A DNA stretch of 64,000 bases from Chitinophagaceae bacterium (GTDB lineage Bacteria > Bacteroidota > Bacteroidia > Chitinophagales > Chitinophagaceae). The translations under genes were made by a program, and so were the position numbers. Every line of letters begins with the position of its first letter. The first letter of the stretch is position 1. Shown piece by piece: positions 9,570 to 60,085 of this stretch. The notes beneath the pieces were generated by a model. It was not told where the DNA came from. It worked only from the letters and a program-made list of their open reading frames with translations, and searched no databases. The stretch spans positions 1-64,000 of the forward strand of contig CANGIT010000005.1 of NCBI GenBank assembly GCA_947454155.1, given 5' to 3'.

Positions 9570-10961
9570 ATGCGCATACAACAATTGTTTTTGGGAGTTA
9601 TCGCATTCATGGTAATGGCCAGCGGATGCCGCAAAGATCCTGCAGATACAGATGCAGATCCATATCATTATAATCCCGACTGGACGGCGAATTCACACGA
9701 AAAGAGAGTTCCAGATTACGAAAAAATATTTCCGCAGAACAATATCAATACCATTGAGATCAGCCTTAGCGCAGTGCAATGGAGCCGTATCAAAGCGAAC
9801 ATGTCATCGCTTTTTGGAATTCCCTTCGGTGCCTCAGTAAGCAACACACCTCAAAACACTTCAGGCATAGATCCCGAATATGTTGACGTGAACGTGAAGT
9901 TTGAAGGCAAGAATTGGAAAAATGTAGGCTTCAGATTACGGGGAAACAAGATGCTGGGTGATATATGGAATGATGGCATTTATAAGCTTCCCTTCCATTT
10001 GAATTTCGACAAATTTGAAGTCGAAATACCTGGTATTAAGAATCAACGATTCTATGGCTTCAAAGAAATAACTTTCAATCCGGGCTATAAAGATCCTTCG
10101 CTGCTTCACGACAAACTGGCCAGCGACATCTTCAACATGGGCGGCATCGCGGCACCACAAACCGCTTTTTACAAAGTGTATATCAACTTCGGAGCAGGTG
10201 CCAAATACTGTGGTGTTTACTGCGCCAATGAACTCCCGGAAGACAACCTGCTACTGGATAAATACGCGGAAAATTCGGGCAACATCTATAAACCCACTTC
10301 AGCATTGAGTATCTTTCGTGAAGATGAATTTCTAAAAAAGAACAATGAATCAGATGCTGATTATGCAGATGTACAAGCGCTGATCAATGTGTTGAACAGT
10401 CCCTCAAGAATCAATAATCCAACACAATGGCATAACGATATCAGTCATGTTATAAATGTAGAGCAGTTTTTAAAATGGCTGGCCATCAGTAATGCGATGG
10501 TGAACCCCGGAGGTTATGGCGCGTCGGCCGAGAATTATTATATATACCACCACAGCGATGGTCGATTCATCTGGATTCCCTGGGATAACAATGAAGCGAT
10601 GAGCGCCGAACCGGGTATCGTTGGCGCCATCGGCGGAAACGGCAACTATGGCTTATCGTTATCGATGAATGAGGTGACCGCCAACTGGCCATTGATCAGG
10701 TATCTGATGGATGACCCTTCGTATTTTCAGCTGTACAAACAACAACTCAGTTCCTTCAACAACACTTGCTTTTCCACTTCGGCCATCAACTTGCTGATTG
10801 ATAAATATTTCAATCTTATTACCGATGCCGTAACCGGCAGCGAAGGCGAACAGCCACATTACACCTTGCTCAGCAGCAGTGCCGCATTTCTGAACGAGAG
10901 GACAAATCTGAAAAATCATTTCAATAGCCGCTATCAACTCATCAGATCCTATGCACCCTGA
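9570..10961 (+). CDS. CotH kinase family lipoprotein
   Basis: Lipobox-like MVMASGC; CotH hallmark ENYYIYHHSDGRFIWIPWDNNEAM. Confidence 0.85.
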   Translation: MRIQQLFLGVIAFMVMASGCRKDPADTDADPYHYNPDWTANSHEKRVPDYEKIFPQNNINTIEISLSAVQWSRIKANMSSLFGIPFGASVSNTPQNTSGIDPEYVDVNVKFEGKNWKNVGFRLRGNKMLGDIWNDGIYKLPFHLNFDKFEVEIPGIKNQRFYGFKEITFNPGYKDPSLLHDKLASDIFNMGGIAAPQTAFYKVYINFGAGAKYCGVYCANELPEDNLLLDKYAENSGNIYKPTSALSIFREDEFLKKNNESDADYADVQALINVLNSPSRINNPTQWHNDISHVINVEQFLKWLAISNAMVNPGGYGASAENYYIYHHSDGRFIWIPWDNNEAMSAEPGIVGAIGGNGNYGLSLSMNEVTANWPLIRYLMDDPSYFQLYKQQLSSFNNTCFSTSAINLLIDKYFNLITDAVTGSEGEQPHYTLLSSSAAFLNERTNLKNHFNSRYQLIRSYAP

Positions 10962-16203: not shown

Positions 16204-17952
16204 ATGAAAAAACTAATAGGCTCCTCCCTCTTCATCTTGCTCATGGCGGCAGGCATAACAATATCATGCCAATCTTCCCATAAAAAAGAACAGGACATGG
16301 TCTCGAACGACTCCACGGCCAAAAAATGGTGGAAGGAAGCTGTGATCTATCAACTCTATCCCAGAAGTTTCAAAGACAGCGATGGTGATGGTGTAGGCGA
16401 TTTGAAAGGCATCATCTCCGAACTCGACTACCTGAAAAGTTTGGGTGTTAATGCCGTTTGGCTGAATCCCATTTACGGATCACCCAACGACGACAACGGA
16501 TACGATGTGAGCGACTACCGTGGCATCATGAAAGATTTTGGCACCATGGAAGATTTCGACAACTTACTGAAAGGCATGCACGAAAGAGGAATCAAACTGG
16601 TGATGGACCTGGTGGTGAACCATAGCAGCGACGAACACGAATGGTTCAAACAGGCGAAGAGCTCACGTAACAGTCACTATCGTAATTATTATCATTGGTG
16701 GGATGCCGAAAGAGGCAAACCGAAATATCGTTACAGCCTTTTTGATATACACAACGATGCCTGGAAACTGGATACGCCTACTAACTCTTATTACCTGCAT
16801 TATTTTTCGCGTAAGCAACCCGACCTCAACTGGGAAAACCCCAAGCTGCGTCAGGAGGTATATGGCATCATGAAATTTTGGCTGGACAAGGGAATTGACG
16901 GTTTCAGGATGGATGCTTTTCAATTCTGCGCCAAAGACACCACTTTTCCTGCTTTCGCCGGTTTGAACGACAAGACTTTCATTCAATATTATGCGATGCA
17001 AAACCCGATTCACGATTATCTCAAAGAGATGAACAAAGAAGTGTTGAGCAAGTATGATGTGATGAGCGTGGCTGAAGGTGCCGGAAGAAATTATCAGGAT
17101 GCGCACGACCTGGTAGATGAAGACCGACATGAGCTGAACATGGCTTATGCTTTCGATGCAGTGGATCTGGCCAATGATTCCAATTACAGCGTGGTGAAGT
17201 TTAAAAAGATTTTCTCCGACTGGGACAGTGTGTTTGCCGATAAAGGCTGGCTGTCTATTTTTCTGGCTAATCACGACAATGCGCGCATGGTTACCCGCTT
17301 TGGCTGCGACCGTCCGGAGTTTCGCGACCTGTCTTCTAAAATGCTGAACACATTCATCCTGTCGATGAGAGGAAGCCCTTACTGTTATTATGGAGATGAG
17401 CTCGGCATGGTGAATATCCGCTTCAATAAAATCGAAGATTATAACGACATGCCCACACTCAACCAGTATAAACACCTGAAAGAAACCGGCGGAGATATAG
17501 ATGCGTTTTTAAAAATGAAACAATACAGCTGCCGCGACAACGGCAGAACGCCCATGCAATGGGATGCTACGGCCAATGCAGGATTCACCACAGGCAAACC
17601 CTGGCTGAAAGTGAATCCGAATTATGTTACACTCAACCGAGAAGCCCAGGAAAAAGATCCAAACAGCTGTTTGAACTATTTCAGAAAAATGATTCAACTC
17701 CGCAAAGAGAATGAGGCTTTGGTGTATGGAAAATATACCCTGCTCGACAAAAACAATCCTTCCGTTTACGCCTACACGCGCGAATGGAAAGGGAAGAAAT
17801 TTTTAGTTTTGTTGAACTTCAGCGAACAAACTGCCGCTTACAATGTCGGTATGGATATTTCAAATGCCACCATGAAACTTTGCAATTATGCCACAGTTTC
17901 CAAACCTGGATCATTGAAACCTTTCGAAGCAGTGGTGTATGAGATACATTGA
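16204..17952 (+). CDS. GH13 alpha-glucosidase-like lipoprotein
   Basis: The 16039 ORF start is upstream; ATG 16204 gives MKKLIGSSLFILLMAAGITISC (lipobox). GH13 motifs MDLVVNH, GFRMDAF, MSVAEG, ANHDNARM. Confidence 0.9.
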   Translation: MKKLIGSSLFILLMAAGITISCQSSHKKEQDMVSNDSTAKKWWKEAVIYQLYPRSFKDSDGDGVGDLKGIISELDYLKSLGVNAVWLNPIYGSPNDDNGYDVSDYRGIMKDFGTMEDFDNLLKGMHERGIKLVMDLVVNHSSDEHEWFKQAKSSRNSHYRNYYHWWDAERGKPKYRYSLFDIHNDAWKLDTPTNSYYLHYFSRKQPDLNWENPKLRQEVYGIMKFWLDKGIDGFRMDAFQFCAKDTTFPAFAGLNDKTFIQYYAMQNPIHDYLKEMNKEVLSKYDVMSVAEGAGRNYQDAHDLVDEDRHELNMAYAFDAVDLANDSNYSVVKFKKIFSDWDSVFADKGWLSIFLANHDNARMVTRFGCDRPEFRDLSSKMLNTFILSMRGSPYCYYGDELGMVNIRFNKIEDYNDMPTLNQYKHLKETGGDIDAFLKMKQYSCRDNGRTPMQWDATANAGFTTGKPWLKVNPNYVTLNREAQEKDPNSCLNYFRKMIQLRKENEALVYGKYTLLDKNNPSVYAYTREWKGKKFLVLLNFSEQTAAYNVGMDISNATMKLCNYATVSKPGSLKPFEAVVYEIH

Positions 17953-18018
17953 TTCTTGATTCTTGATTCTTGATTCTTGATTCTTGATTCTTGATTCTTG
18001 ATTCTTGATTCTTGATTT
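17949..18018. repeat. Heptanucleotide tandem repeat (TTGATTC)9 plus one variant unit
   Basis: Nine perfect TTGATTC units 17949-18011 then TTGATTT; the GH13 stop TGA (17950-17952) lies inside the first unit. Confidence 0.95.
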
Positions 18019-18127
18019 GTGGTTTGTGATTGGGGATTTGTGATTTGATTGTTTGTGGTTTGTGGTTTTTGGTTTGATTTTGGTATTTAAAACTGCTGGT
18101 TTAACCCTATGAAACATTCGAAAAACC

Positions 18128-58311: not shown

Positions 58312-58386
58312 GGAATCTTAGCTCAGTTGGTTTAGAGCATCACGTCGACAACGTGAGGGTCACTGGTTCGAGCCCAGTAGGTTCCA
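58312..58386 (+). tRNA. tRNA-Val (GAC)
   Basis: Acceptor GGAATCT/AGGTTCC, D arm GCTC/GAGC, anticodon arm TCACG-TCGACAA-CGTGA (anticodon 58347-58349), T arm ACTGG-TTCGAGC-CCAGT; CCA not encoded. Confidence 0.9.
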
Positions 58387-58387
58387 C

Positions 58388-58882
58388 TTAGTGTGATTGT
58401 TTCTTTGGGTACAGTTTCATAGTATCTAGACCCAGACAACGAAGTTCGTCTGCGGTCCAGTAGGTTCCACAACATGTGCTCATTTTTTTGAAATGGTTAT
58501 ATTGCAGTCAGACCCAGACAAAGAAGTTCGTCTGTGGTCCAGTAGGTTCCACTTAGTGTGATTGTTTCTTTGGGTACAGTTTTATAGTATCTAAACCCAG
58601 ACAACGAAGTTCGTCTGCGGTCTAGTAGGTTCCACAACATGTGCTCATTTTTTTTGAAATGGTTATATTGCAGTCAGACCCAGACAACGAAGTTCGTCTG
58701 CGGTCCAGTAGGTTCCACTTAGTGTGATTGTTTCTTTGGGTACAGTTTCATAGTATCTAGACCCAGACAACGAAGTTTGTCTGCGGTCCAGTAGGTTCCA
58801 CAACATCTGCTCATTTTTTTGAAACGATTTTATTGCAGTCAGACCCAGACAACGAAGTTCGTCTGTGGTCCAGTAGGTTCCA
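58388..58882 (+). repeat. Six tandem ~83-bp units (A-B-A-B-A-B), each ending in the tRNA-Val 3' end sequence
   Basis: A units 58388-58470, 58553-58635, 58719-58801; B units 58471-58552, 58636-58718, 58802-58882. Copies of CCAGTAGGTTCCA(C) at 58374 (tRNA), 58457, 58539, 58622 (one mismatch), 58705, 58788 and 58870; spacing 82-83 bp. Confidence 0.97.
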
Positions 58883-58883
58883 G

Positions 58884-58925
58884 AAACACATTAGCCCACC
58901 ATTTAAACGGTGGGCTAATGTGTTT
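58884..58925. terminator. 17-bp perfect-stem hairpin closing the repeat array (likely bidirectional terminator)
   Basis: AAACACATTAGCCCACC-ATTTAAAC-GGTGGGCTAATGTGTTT. Confidence 0.8.
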
Positions 58926-58951: not shown

Positions 58952-60085
58952 TCAAACTCTTACATACCATTTTTTCTTATCCATCACATAGCCAACCAGC
59001 CAGCACACCATCATAAAACTCAGTGCAAAAACCAGCGAACCCCAATTACCTCCTATAGGCTCAAACACTTTACTGTAGACGACCCTGAAATAATTGGTAG
59101 CTGGATTGGAAGCATCTGTTCTCAGAAAATACAACATGGTAGCTCCCAGTTCAGACAACAAATAAATCACAATTGGATTTCTTCCGAAAACTTCAAAGAA
59201 ATAAGTCCATTTAGTTTTTTTTCTGAAATCAATGATATAAATGATGATCGATATGATGAGACAATCCAATCCCACTGTATGCAAAACGTAAGAACTTGTC
59301 CACAATTTTTTATTGATGGGAAAAACGAGATCCCAGCAGTAAGCGCCCAACAATAACAGGGCTCCGATGATCAATAATTTTGACAAGGTTTCGTAAGTGA
59401 CTCCCTTTTCCTGTAAATATTTTCCTACCCAAAAACCACCCACCACATTAGCAATCGCAGGCATGGTGCTCAACAATCCTTCGGGATCAAAAGCCACCCC
59501 CTCGCCTTGGTACATGTGATTTTCTCCAATCAGCCACTTATCAACCATAAATCCAAAATTGGTTTGCATGCCCATATAATCGTTTCCTCCGAAGGCCACC
59601 AAAAGCATCCAGTACAACAACAAGAAGATGATGCTGATGATCAACGCAGCCTTAGGTTTGAAATAATGAATCAACAAAGCACCGATGCCATAACATAAGG
59701 CGATTCTTTGCAAAACCCCAAATATTCTGGTTTTGACCAAAGGATTGGCCACCAGCTCTCCGGCTTCGTTCCACCAAACAAATGGAAACCAATACATGAG
59801 ATACCCTAACAGAAAAATAATGAATGTTCTCTTGATGATTTTCCATAAAACCATTGATTCAGGAAGACCTTCCCATTTGTTCATCACAAAACTCATGGCA
59901 TTGCCTACGGCAAATAAGAAAGAAGGAAACACCAGGTCGGTGGGCGTAAATCCATTCCATTTGGCATGCAATAGAGGAGAAAATGTGGTGTCGCCATTTC
60001 CGGGTGTATTCACTATGATCATCAGGCAGATGGTCATTCCTCTGAAAACATCCAAGGCGGTAAACCGTTGATTAATAGTACTCAT
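58952..60085 (-). CDS. DUF5009 / heparan-alpha-glucosaminide N-acetyltransferase-like membrane protein
   Basis: RFTALDVFRGMTICLMIIVNTPG...HAKWNGFTPTDLVFPSFLFAVGNAMSF. Confidence 0.88.
   Translation of the reverse strand: MSTINQRFTALDVFRGMTICLMIIVNTPGNGDTTFSPLLHAKWNGFTPTDLVFPSFLFAVGNAMSFVMNKWEGLPESMVLWKIIKRTFIIFLLGYLMYWFPFVWWNEAGELVANPLVKTRIFGVLQRIALCYGIGALLIHYFKPKAALIISIIFLLLYWMLLVAFGGNDYMGMQTNFGFMVDKWLIGENHMYQGEGVAFDPEGLLSTMPAIANVVGGFWVGKYLQEKGVTYETLSKLLIIGALLLLGAYCWDLVFPINKKLWTSSYVLHTVGLDCLIISIIIYIIDFRKKTKWTYFFEVFGRNPIVIYLLSELGATMLYFLRTDASNPATNYFRVVYSKVFEPIGGNWGSLVFALSFMMVCWLVGYVMDKKKWYVRV

Follow-up and report, generated by a model that had tools for sequence, protein, structure and literature searches.

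The six tandem units behind tRNA-Val(GAC) are probably a scar, ORF-less and amplified in tandem, from a class of tRNA-targeting GIY-YIG elements in Bacteroidota. A GIY-YIG Open Reading Frame (ORF) is absent from the window (the whole stretch of 64,000 nucleotides from a Chitinophagaceae bacterium that was analysed), and from the surroundings of the array in its genome (G000, the Val-array genome) and in the only genome of the genus with a clear match to it (G508). The array is therefore linked to an endonuclease through its class, by anatomy and by mixed arrays of units with and without the ORF, and not directly. Read in this way, a puzzling repeat becomes a legible mark of conflict at tRNA genes.

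Anatomy of the array behind tRNA-Val(GAC)

The single tRNA gene of the window is tRNA-Val(GAC) (58312..58387, + strand), which is intact and has no encoded CCA, and ARAGORN and Rfam (RF00005, 62 bits) agree with the original prediction on its identity. Six units follow on the + strand: A1 (58388..58470, 83 bp), B1 (58471..58552, 82 bp), A2 (58553..58635, 83 bp), B2 (58636..58718, 83 bp), A3 (58719..58801, 83 bp) and B3 (58802..58883, 82 bp). The exact unit sequences confirm the number of units and their strict A-B-A-B-A-B order, both of which had been predicted, while the predicted size range of 81–83 bp was too wide, as no unit measures 81 bp. The length variation of the B units had been ascribed to a T7/T8 run, and B2 is indeed one base longer, with T8 for T7. 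Tandem Repeats Finder reports the region 58374-58882 with a period of 165, 3.1 copies, 95% match and a score of 939, and a second period of 83 at 75% match.

Each unit begins with a variable body of 39–40 nt, continues with a 12-bp hairpin that contains bulges, and finishes with the tRNA's final 14 nt. The 43-nt block common to all units, which had been recognized in the original prediction, differs by 0–4 bases between them. The junction hairpin of this block in A1 (GACCCAGAC-AAC-gaa-GTT-c-GTCTG-c-GGTC; 58429..58457, + strand) was located by folding and pattern search, and those of the other units lie on the same strand at 58511-58539, 58594-58622, 58677-58705, 58760-58788 and 58842-58870. 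As foreseen for the gaa-loop segment, it folds, with 12 pairs, two bulged pyrimidines and about −13 kcal/mol. Every block is closed by a copy of the tRNA-Val 3' end, read from the sequence as CCAGTAGGTTCCAC in A1 (58457..58470, + strand), which comprises the T-stem 3' strand, the acceptor 3' strand and the following bases, again as predicted. The copies in the other units end at 58552, 58635 (CTAGTAGGTTCCAC), 58718, 58801 and 58883, the last with G and not C as its final base.

The window contains six copies of the hairpin core, where shuffles predict 0.01, and the whole genome (2.9 Mb) holds the same six, every one inside the array. Since the core is also nearly absent from 399 family genomes (≤3 mismatches), apart from one locus in another genus (L124, described below), a REP-like dispersed repeat was rejected. 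The similarity between bodies A and B is not significant (344 of 2000 shuffles were as good), and neither body has significant similarity to tRNA-Val.

The array stops, in line with the original prediction, at a hairpin with a perfect 17-bp stem (58884..58925, strand unassigned; from folding and the ORF list), which abuts the last tRNA-end copy. Its stem arms are 58884-58900 and 58909-58925, and the fold reaches −30.5 kcal/mol (z −7.5). A long T tract is absent from this hairpin, and the terminator scan made no call there. A convergent gene ends at 58952, beyond the hairpin, which is possibly the original terminator of tRNA-Val, shared with this gene. Most of the other tRNAs listed from the Val-array genome are closely followed by a hairpin that ends in a T tract; as the array separates tRNA-Val from its hairpin, it looks inserted. 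The ORF list agrees with the earlier statement that no ORF spans the array.

Two other repetitive regions were seen in the window. Imperfect 147-bp tandem repeats with a higher period of 441 bp occupy positions 1-945 and are probably repetitive protein-coding sequence, and short tandem repeats (TTGATTC and variants) are clustered at 17949-18079.

Relatives of the array and partial copies at other tRNAs

Among the 94 genomes of the genus set, a clear match to the array was found only in G508. Behind the tRNA-Val(GAC) gene of that genome come a 21-nt body and the 43-nt block, then another, nearly identical body and another hairpin, this one having lost its tRNA tail; the period is 64 bp. The G508 body is unrelated to the bodies of the Val array in G000, but the 43-nt block is identical at 40 of 43 positions, and of the three differences one lies in a bulge and two form a compensated pair, a single compensatory event that changes the stem from CAGAC/GTCTG in G000 to CCGAC/GTCGG in G508. 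This comparison indicates that the persisting module is the hairpin with the tRNA end, not the bodies or the period. The window and the G508 array have no flanking proteins in common. The genus search gave 28 tRNA-Val(GAC)-like places in 25 genomes, and none of the remaining readable trailers carries a Val-type array beyond those in G000 and G508, so the presence of the array at this tRNA gene in relatives was borne out for one genome and failed for all others examined in the genus.

That the array is an assembly artefact of a metagenome-type draft is scarcely credible. The genome is a draft of 32 contigs, 500-bp repeats are prone to misassembly, and the copy number could be compressed or expanded; however, substitutions and T-run length separate the units, and the array has a relative in G508, which is an independent genome.

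The hairpin block is conserved across bodies A, B and G508 with one compensatory pair, to which the locus L124 adds another, and this could mean that a functional structured RNA resides in the pre-tRNA-Val trailer, either rtT-like or a 3' spacer that sponges sRNAs, in which the hairpin and the tRNA-like end are active. Because the array has the tRNA on one side and a strong hairpin on the other, it may be co-transcribed with tRNA-Val. The whole array also folds better than shuffles (z about −6 with 20 shuffles), although a repeat array folds on itself anyway. However, the covariation test on the G000/G508 stem is weak, since it has one event and its score was reached by 30 of 500 shuffles; the genus trailers of tRNA-Val(GAC), G508 excepted, have no array; scars on the 5' side, upstream of other tRNAs, follow the same hairpin rule; and Rfam at E≤10 returned tRNA and chance-level matches only, by which a known Rfam RNA was rejected as well. 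We consider a functional RNA quite unlikely. The decoy small-RNA function put forward in the original prediction is not supported either: Rfam has no match, with RtT (the proposed comparison) absent both at the gathering threshold and at E≤10, most relatives lack the array, and the 5' pieces upstream of tRNAs are left unexplained.

Similar hairpins were met at two further tRNA loci. In a metagenome contig (L076), two 81-bp units lie upstream of tRNA-Leu(TAA), each with the tRNA 5' end and the palindrome AATCCAGACAACGAAGTTCGTCTGGATT, and in L124 (G093, another genus) a tRNA-Asn 5' piece is separated from the full gene by the hairpin CCAGACAGCGAAGCTCGTCTGG, whose inner pair is compensated. Metagenome matches to the core came from seven contigs, of which only L076 is linked to a tRNA; the rest were set aside as chance matches, mostly in coding sequence, and a viral match (L118) appears to be coding sequence as well. 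Two other repeats were observed at such loci. Downstream of the tRNA-Leu of L076 there are about 12 copies of a minisatellite of about 40 bp (GAGTGAGAAACAGAATGAGAGTGAAGAAATGATAATCA), and in L062 (G011 C4) the terminator and its flank are tandemly duplicated behind tRNA-Val(GAC) without any tRNA piece, in a genome that has two such tRNA genes.

Partial copies of the same tRNA adjoin 21 of 126 tRNA genes in the Val-array genome and its relatives, and none were found in shuffled flanks; the genus and phylum loci were partly picked through GIY-YIG or tRNA matches, so rates are not genome-wide. In the Val-array genome they involve Val(GAC), Pro(TGG), Arg(CCG), Asp(GTC) and Arg(ACG). Generally, 5' pieces are placed upstream and 3' pieces downstream of the intact tRNA. 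The tRNA sequence usually breaks off at one of three arms (D, anticodon or T) and gives way there to a short, GC-rich hairpin. TCCCGA-loop-TCGGGA is a frequent junction hairpin, and the tRNA-Arg copies of three genomes have CCTGCCTGCCGGCAGGCAGG or a near copy of it. A junction stem (≥6 bp with ≥3 G-C pairs, at most 12 nt from the junction) was detected in 39 of 65 copies (47 tRNA genes), compared with 77 of 1261 random positions in the same flanks, a statistic that partly reflects related loci and repeated units. As a control under a loose criterion, 2.9% of random 76-mers taken from the own-genome loci qualified, compared with about 15% of tRNA genes.

The Val array shares the class trait of a truncated copy beside the tRNA, with six copies of its last 14 nt downstream. 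Its hairpin lies 2 nt from the junction in the five copies listed and so fits the rule in position, while four of these five score a stem of 5 bp owing to the bulges and stand outside the 39. Unlike most 3' scars, the Val units have no duplicated terminator.

Two other loci of the Val-array genome contain repeated partial copies. In L022 (G000 C12, near 9610-9681), tandem 27-nt 5' tRNA pieces with the hairpin TCCCGAGTACTCGGGA precede tRNA-Arg(CCG) at a period of 68 bp, which makes this locus the mirror image of the Val array. In L012 (G000 C1, near 183509-184008), two 181-bp units stand behind tRNA-Pro(TGG), each with a degraded tRNA copy whose anticodon arm is replaced by a hairpin, plus a duplicated terminator.

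Ordinary tandem duplication is another way to such copies. The tRNA 3' end and its hairpin-bearing trailer would be copied by slippage or unequal crossing-over without any nuclease, and if only those events that leave one intact tRNA survive, 5' pieces would be found upstream and 3' pieces downstream. The likeness of the 165-bp repeats in the Val array, the absence of an ORF near the Val arrays, the further tandem repeats near tRNAs and the resemblance of L076 to an 81-bp duplication between two GGAAT motifs all agree with it. Hairpins that start at the junction, however, are not predicted by slippage, and neither are the ORFs found between tRNA and copy, their same-strand orientation and their tRNA-specific clades (next section). 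We judge ordinary duplication unlikely as the origin of the array, but slippage may be the source of the later A-B amplification.

Small GIY-YIG genes beside tRNA genes

In several cases a small GIY-YIG ORF (PF01541, about 60 bits) stands between the intact tRNA and its partial copy. That many partial copies flank such an ORF indicates a mobile-element origin at the DNA level; as a counterpoint, many others have no nearby ORF, and ordinary tandem duplication could yield these. In nine genomes of the genus, most free-standing small GIY-YIG ORFs (15 of 19) have a tRNA no more than 600 bp away, and 11 of these 15 are accompanied by a partial copy of that tRNA; for a further 30 Bacteroidota genomes the counts are 29 of 55 near a tRNA and 25 with a partial copy. 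The chance expectation of such proximity is one or two percent by rough arithmetic. Within the locus DNA examined, a tRNA was found at 0 of 27 loci with large GIY-YIG ORFs (UvrC-like and others). All three free-standing GIY-YIG ORFs found in the Val-array genome are 17–39 bp from a tRNA, namely tRNA-Asp (G000 C8:90698-90910), tRNA-Arg (G000 C2:63031-63237) and tRNA-Val-TAC (G000 C29:11240-11383, where the ORF runs off the contig end).

The usual order at these loci is tRNA, terminator, ORF, 5'-truncated tRNA copy with hairpin, and duplicated terminator (for example L174 at tRNA-Lys, L176, L206, L215 and L253 at tRNA-Val), and a mirror order of 5' tRNA piece with hairpin, ORF and intact tRNA was found in L172 (at tRNA-Asp), L181, L241 and L248. 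All tRNA-linked GIY-YIG matches (52 of 52) share the strand of the tRNA. In a tree of 71 GIY-YIG domains, which is short (93 columns) and partly unresolved, 17 ORFs without any tRNA link form a separate clade, and 42 of the 54 in the remaining clade are tRNA-linked. The tRNA identity clusters on this tree across genera and classes, with 29 changes against a shuffled mean of 41.1, and none of 200 shuffles was as low.

Units with and without the ORF occur together in some arrays. For example, L255 (tRNA-Asp) contains two ORF-less units, each of partial tRNA, hairpin and terminator, followed by an ORF-bearing unit with an identical hairpin. L206 (partly masked) and L270 have an extra partial copy behind the ORF unit, and in L259 ORF units are in tandem.

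The directly repeated tRNA 3' ends and the insertion between tRNA and terminal hairpin also have the classic look of attachment-site scars, which would be left by a tyrosine integrase acting at tRNA 3' ends, each unit being the deleted remnant between 14-nt cores. We regard this explanation as very improbable. Copies of 5' ends upstream of tRNAs are common, although an integrase that acts at 3' ends should not leave them, it is a GIY-YIG ORF that recurs, and the 82-bp units are too small for an ORF, with no integrase gene or remnant between the repeats. Plasmids gave no matches and the phage records listed gave matches at the level of the tRNA alone, by which a phage or plasmid source was also rejected.

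Proposed mechanism and known systems

In the proposed mechanism, a full element would consist of a small GIY-YIG endonuclease gene and a duplicated piece of the target tRNA, in which an arm or loop is swapped for a short hairpin, with the intact tRNA on one side of the element and the partial copy on the other. The endonuclease would cut a tRNA gene that has no element, at one of the tRNA arms; with an element-bearing tRNA gene as template, repair would then insert the element and rebuild one intact tRNA, leaving a hairpin-marked piece without the native arm, and the hairpin may render this partial copy resistant, as the native arm would be removed. Direct repeats between the tRNA and the piece would allow expansion or shrinkage by recombination, in which the ORF can be lost, and an array of ORF-less units alone would be the expected outcome of further loss from mixed arrays. 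At tRNA-Val(GAC) the junction would be at the T stem, so that the T-stem 3' strand was kept together with the acceptor strand and the bases that follow, and two body types beside one conserved block would have been amplified as a 165-bp AB pair. The Val array itself would once have had a GIY-YIG gene or been mobilised by one, and we infer cleavage and homing in the bacterial members by analogy.

It is plausible, but we would stop short of calling it probable, that such elements form a widespread class in Bacteroidota, defined by a tRNA-specific GIY-YIG enzyme and a hairpin-marked partial tRNA. In this class the hairpin would replace the cleavage site and mark the copy as immune, ORF-less descendants would amplify into arrays, and a few hairpin modules would be common to elements of different tRNAs. 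If so, the targets of many small proteins annotated as 'GIY-YIG nuclease' could be read from the adjacent tRNA, providing natural pairs of enzyme and site. In the open-access literature we found no description of bacterial chromosomal GIY-YIG elements with partial tRNA copies, and the matches were mostly mitochondrial.

The likeness to the E. coli tyrT arrangement, pointed out in the original prediction, was rightly seen: there too, tandem repeats stand behind a tRNA gene and each of them bears the tRNA 3' end (rtT RNA). The Val array differs from it in the tRNA, the shorter units, the two body types, the junction hairpin and the absence of an RtT match. The mechanism proposed here, if true, would suggest a general origin of tyrT-like arrays of tRNA ends. 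Mitochondrial mobile elements, such as that of Allomyces atp6, combine an endonuclease ORF with a partial duplicate of the target gene; as in the mechanism proposed here, the target gene is made whole again by the insertion and a partial copy stays next to the ORF, but the target is a protein gene in a mitochondrion and not tRNA genes in bacteria, and we know of no junction-hairpin rule among them. REP and Rickettsia palindromic elements are likewise short palindromes reused at several loci, in or near genes, whereas the Val hairpin is not dispersed and its recognised related copies elsewhere adjoin tRNA pieces.

The phage enzyme SegB is a GIY-YIG homing endonuclease that cuts within tRNA genes at the motif RAWTSGAAC (PMC13096335), which by our own reading is the complement of the T arm. 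A tRNA segment does not undergo tandem amplification without SegB, and in phages segB genes are found close to tRNAs (PMC13096335). The SegB proteins of T4 and T6 and other free-standing GIY-YIG homing endonucleases share with the Bacteroidota loci the GIY-YIG domain and the gene position beside tRNA genes, and the reported tRNA-gene cleavage and tandem tRNA-segment amplification (PMC13096335) would have a comparable process in Bacteroidota. In contrast to SegB, the Bacteroidota loci are bacterial chromosomal and carry a partial tRNA copy with a junction hairpin, their enzyme clades tend to tRNA specificity, and the Val array is without an ORF. If the proposed origin is true, the phage story of tRNA cleavage and segment amplification reaches bacterial chromosomes.

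One GIY-YIG ORF was observed in a different setting. In L183 (G008 C36) its neighbours are a solitary partial 3' end of tRNA-Asp and a terminator, with no intact tRNA found within 1.5 kb, and it groups with the tRNA-Asp-linked enzymes; this locus is possibly an element that moved away from its tRNA.
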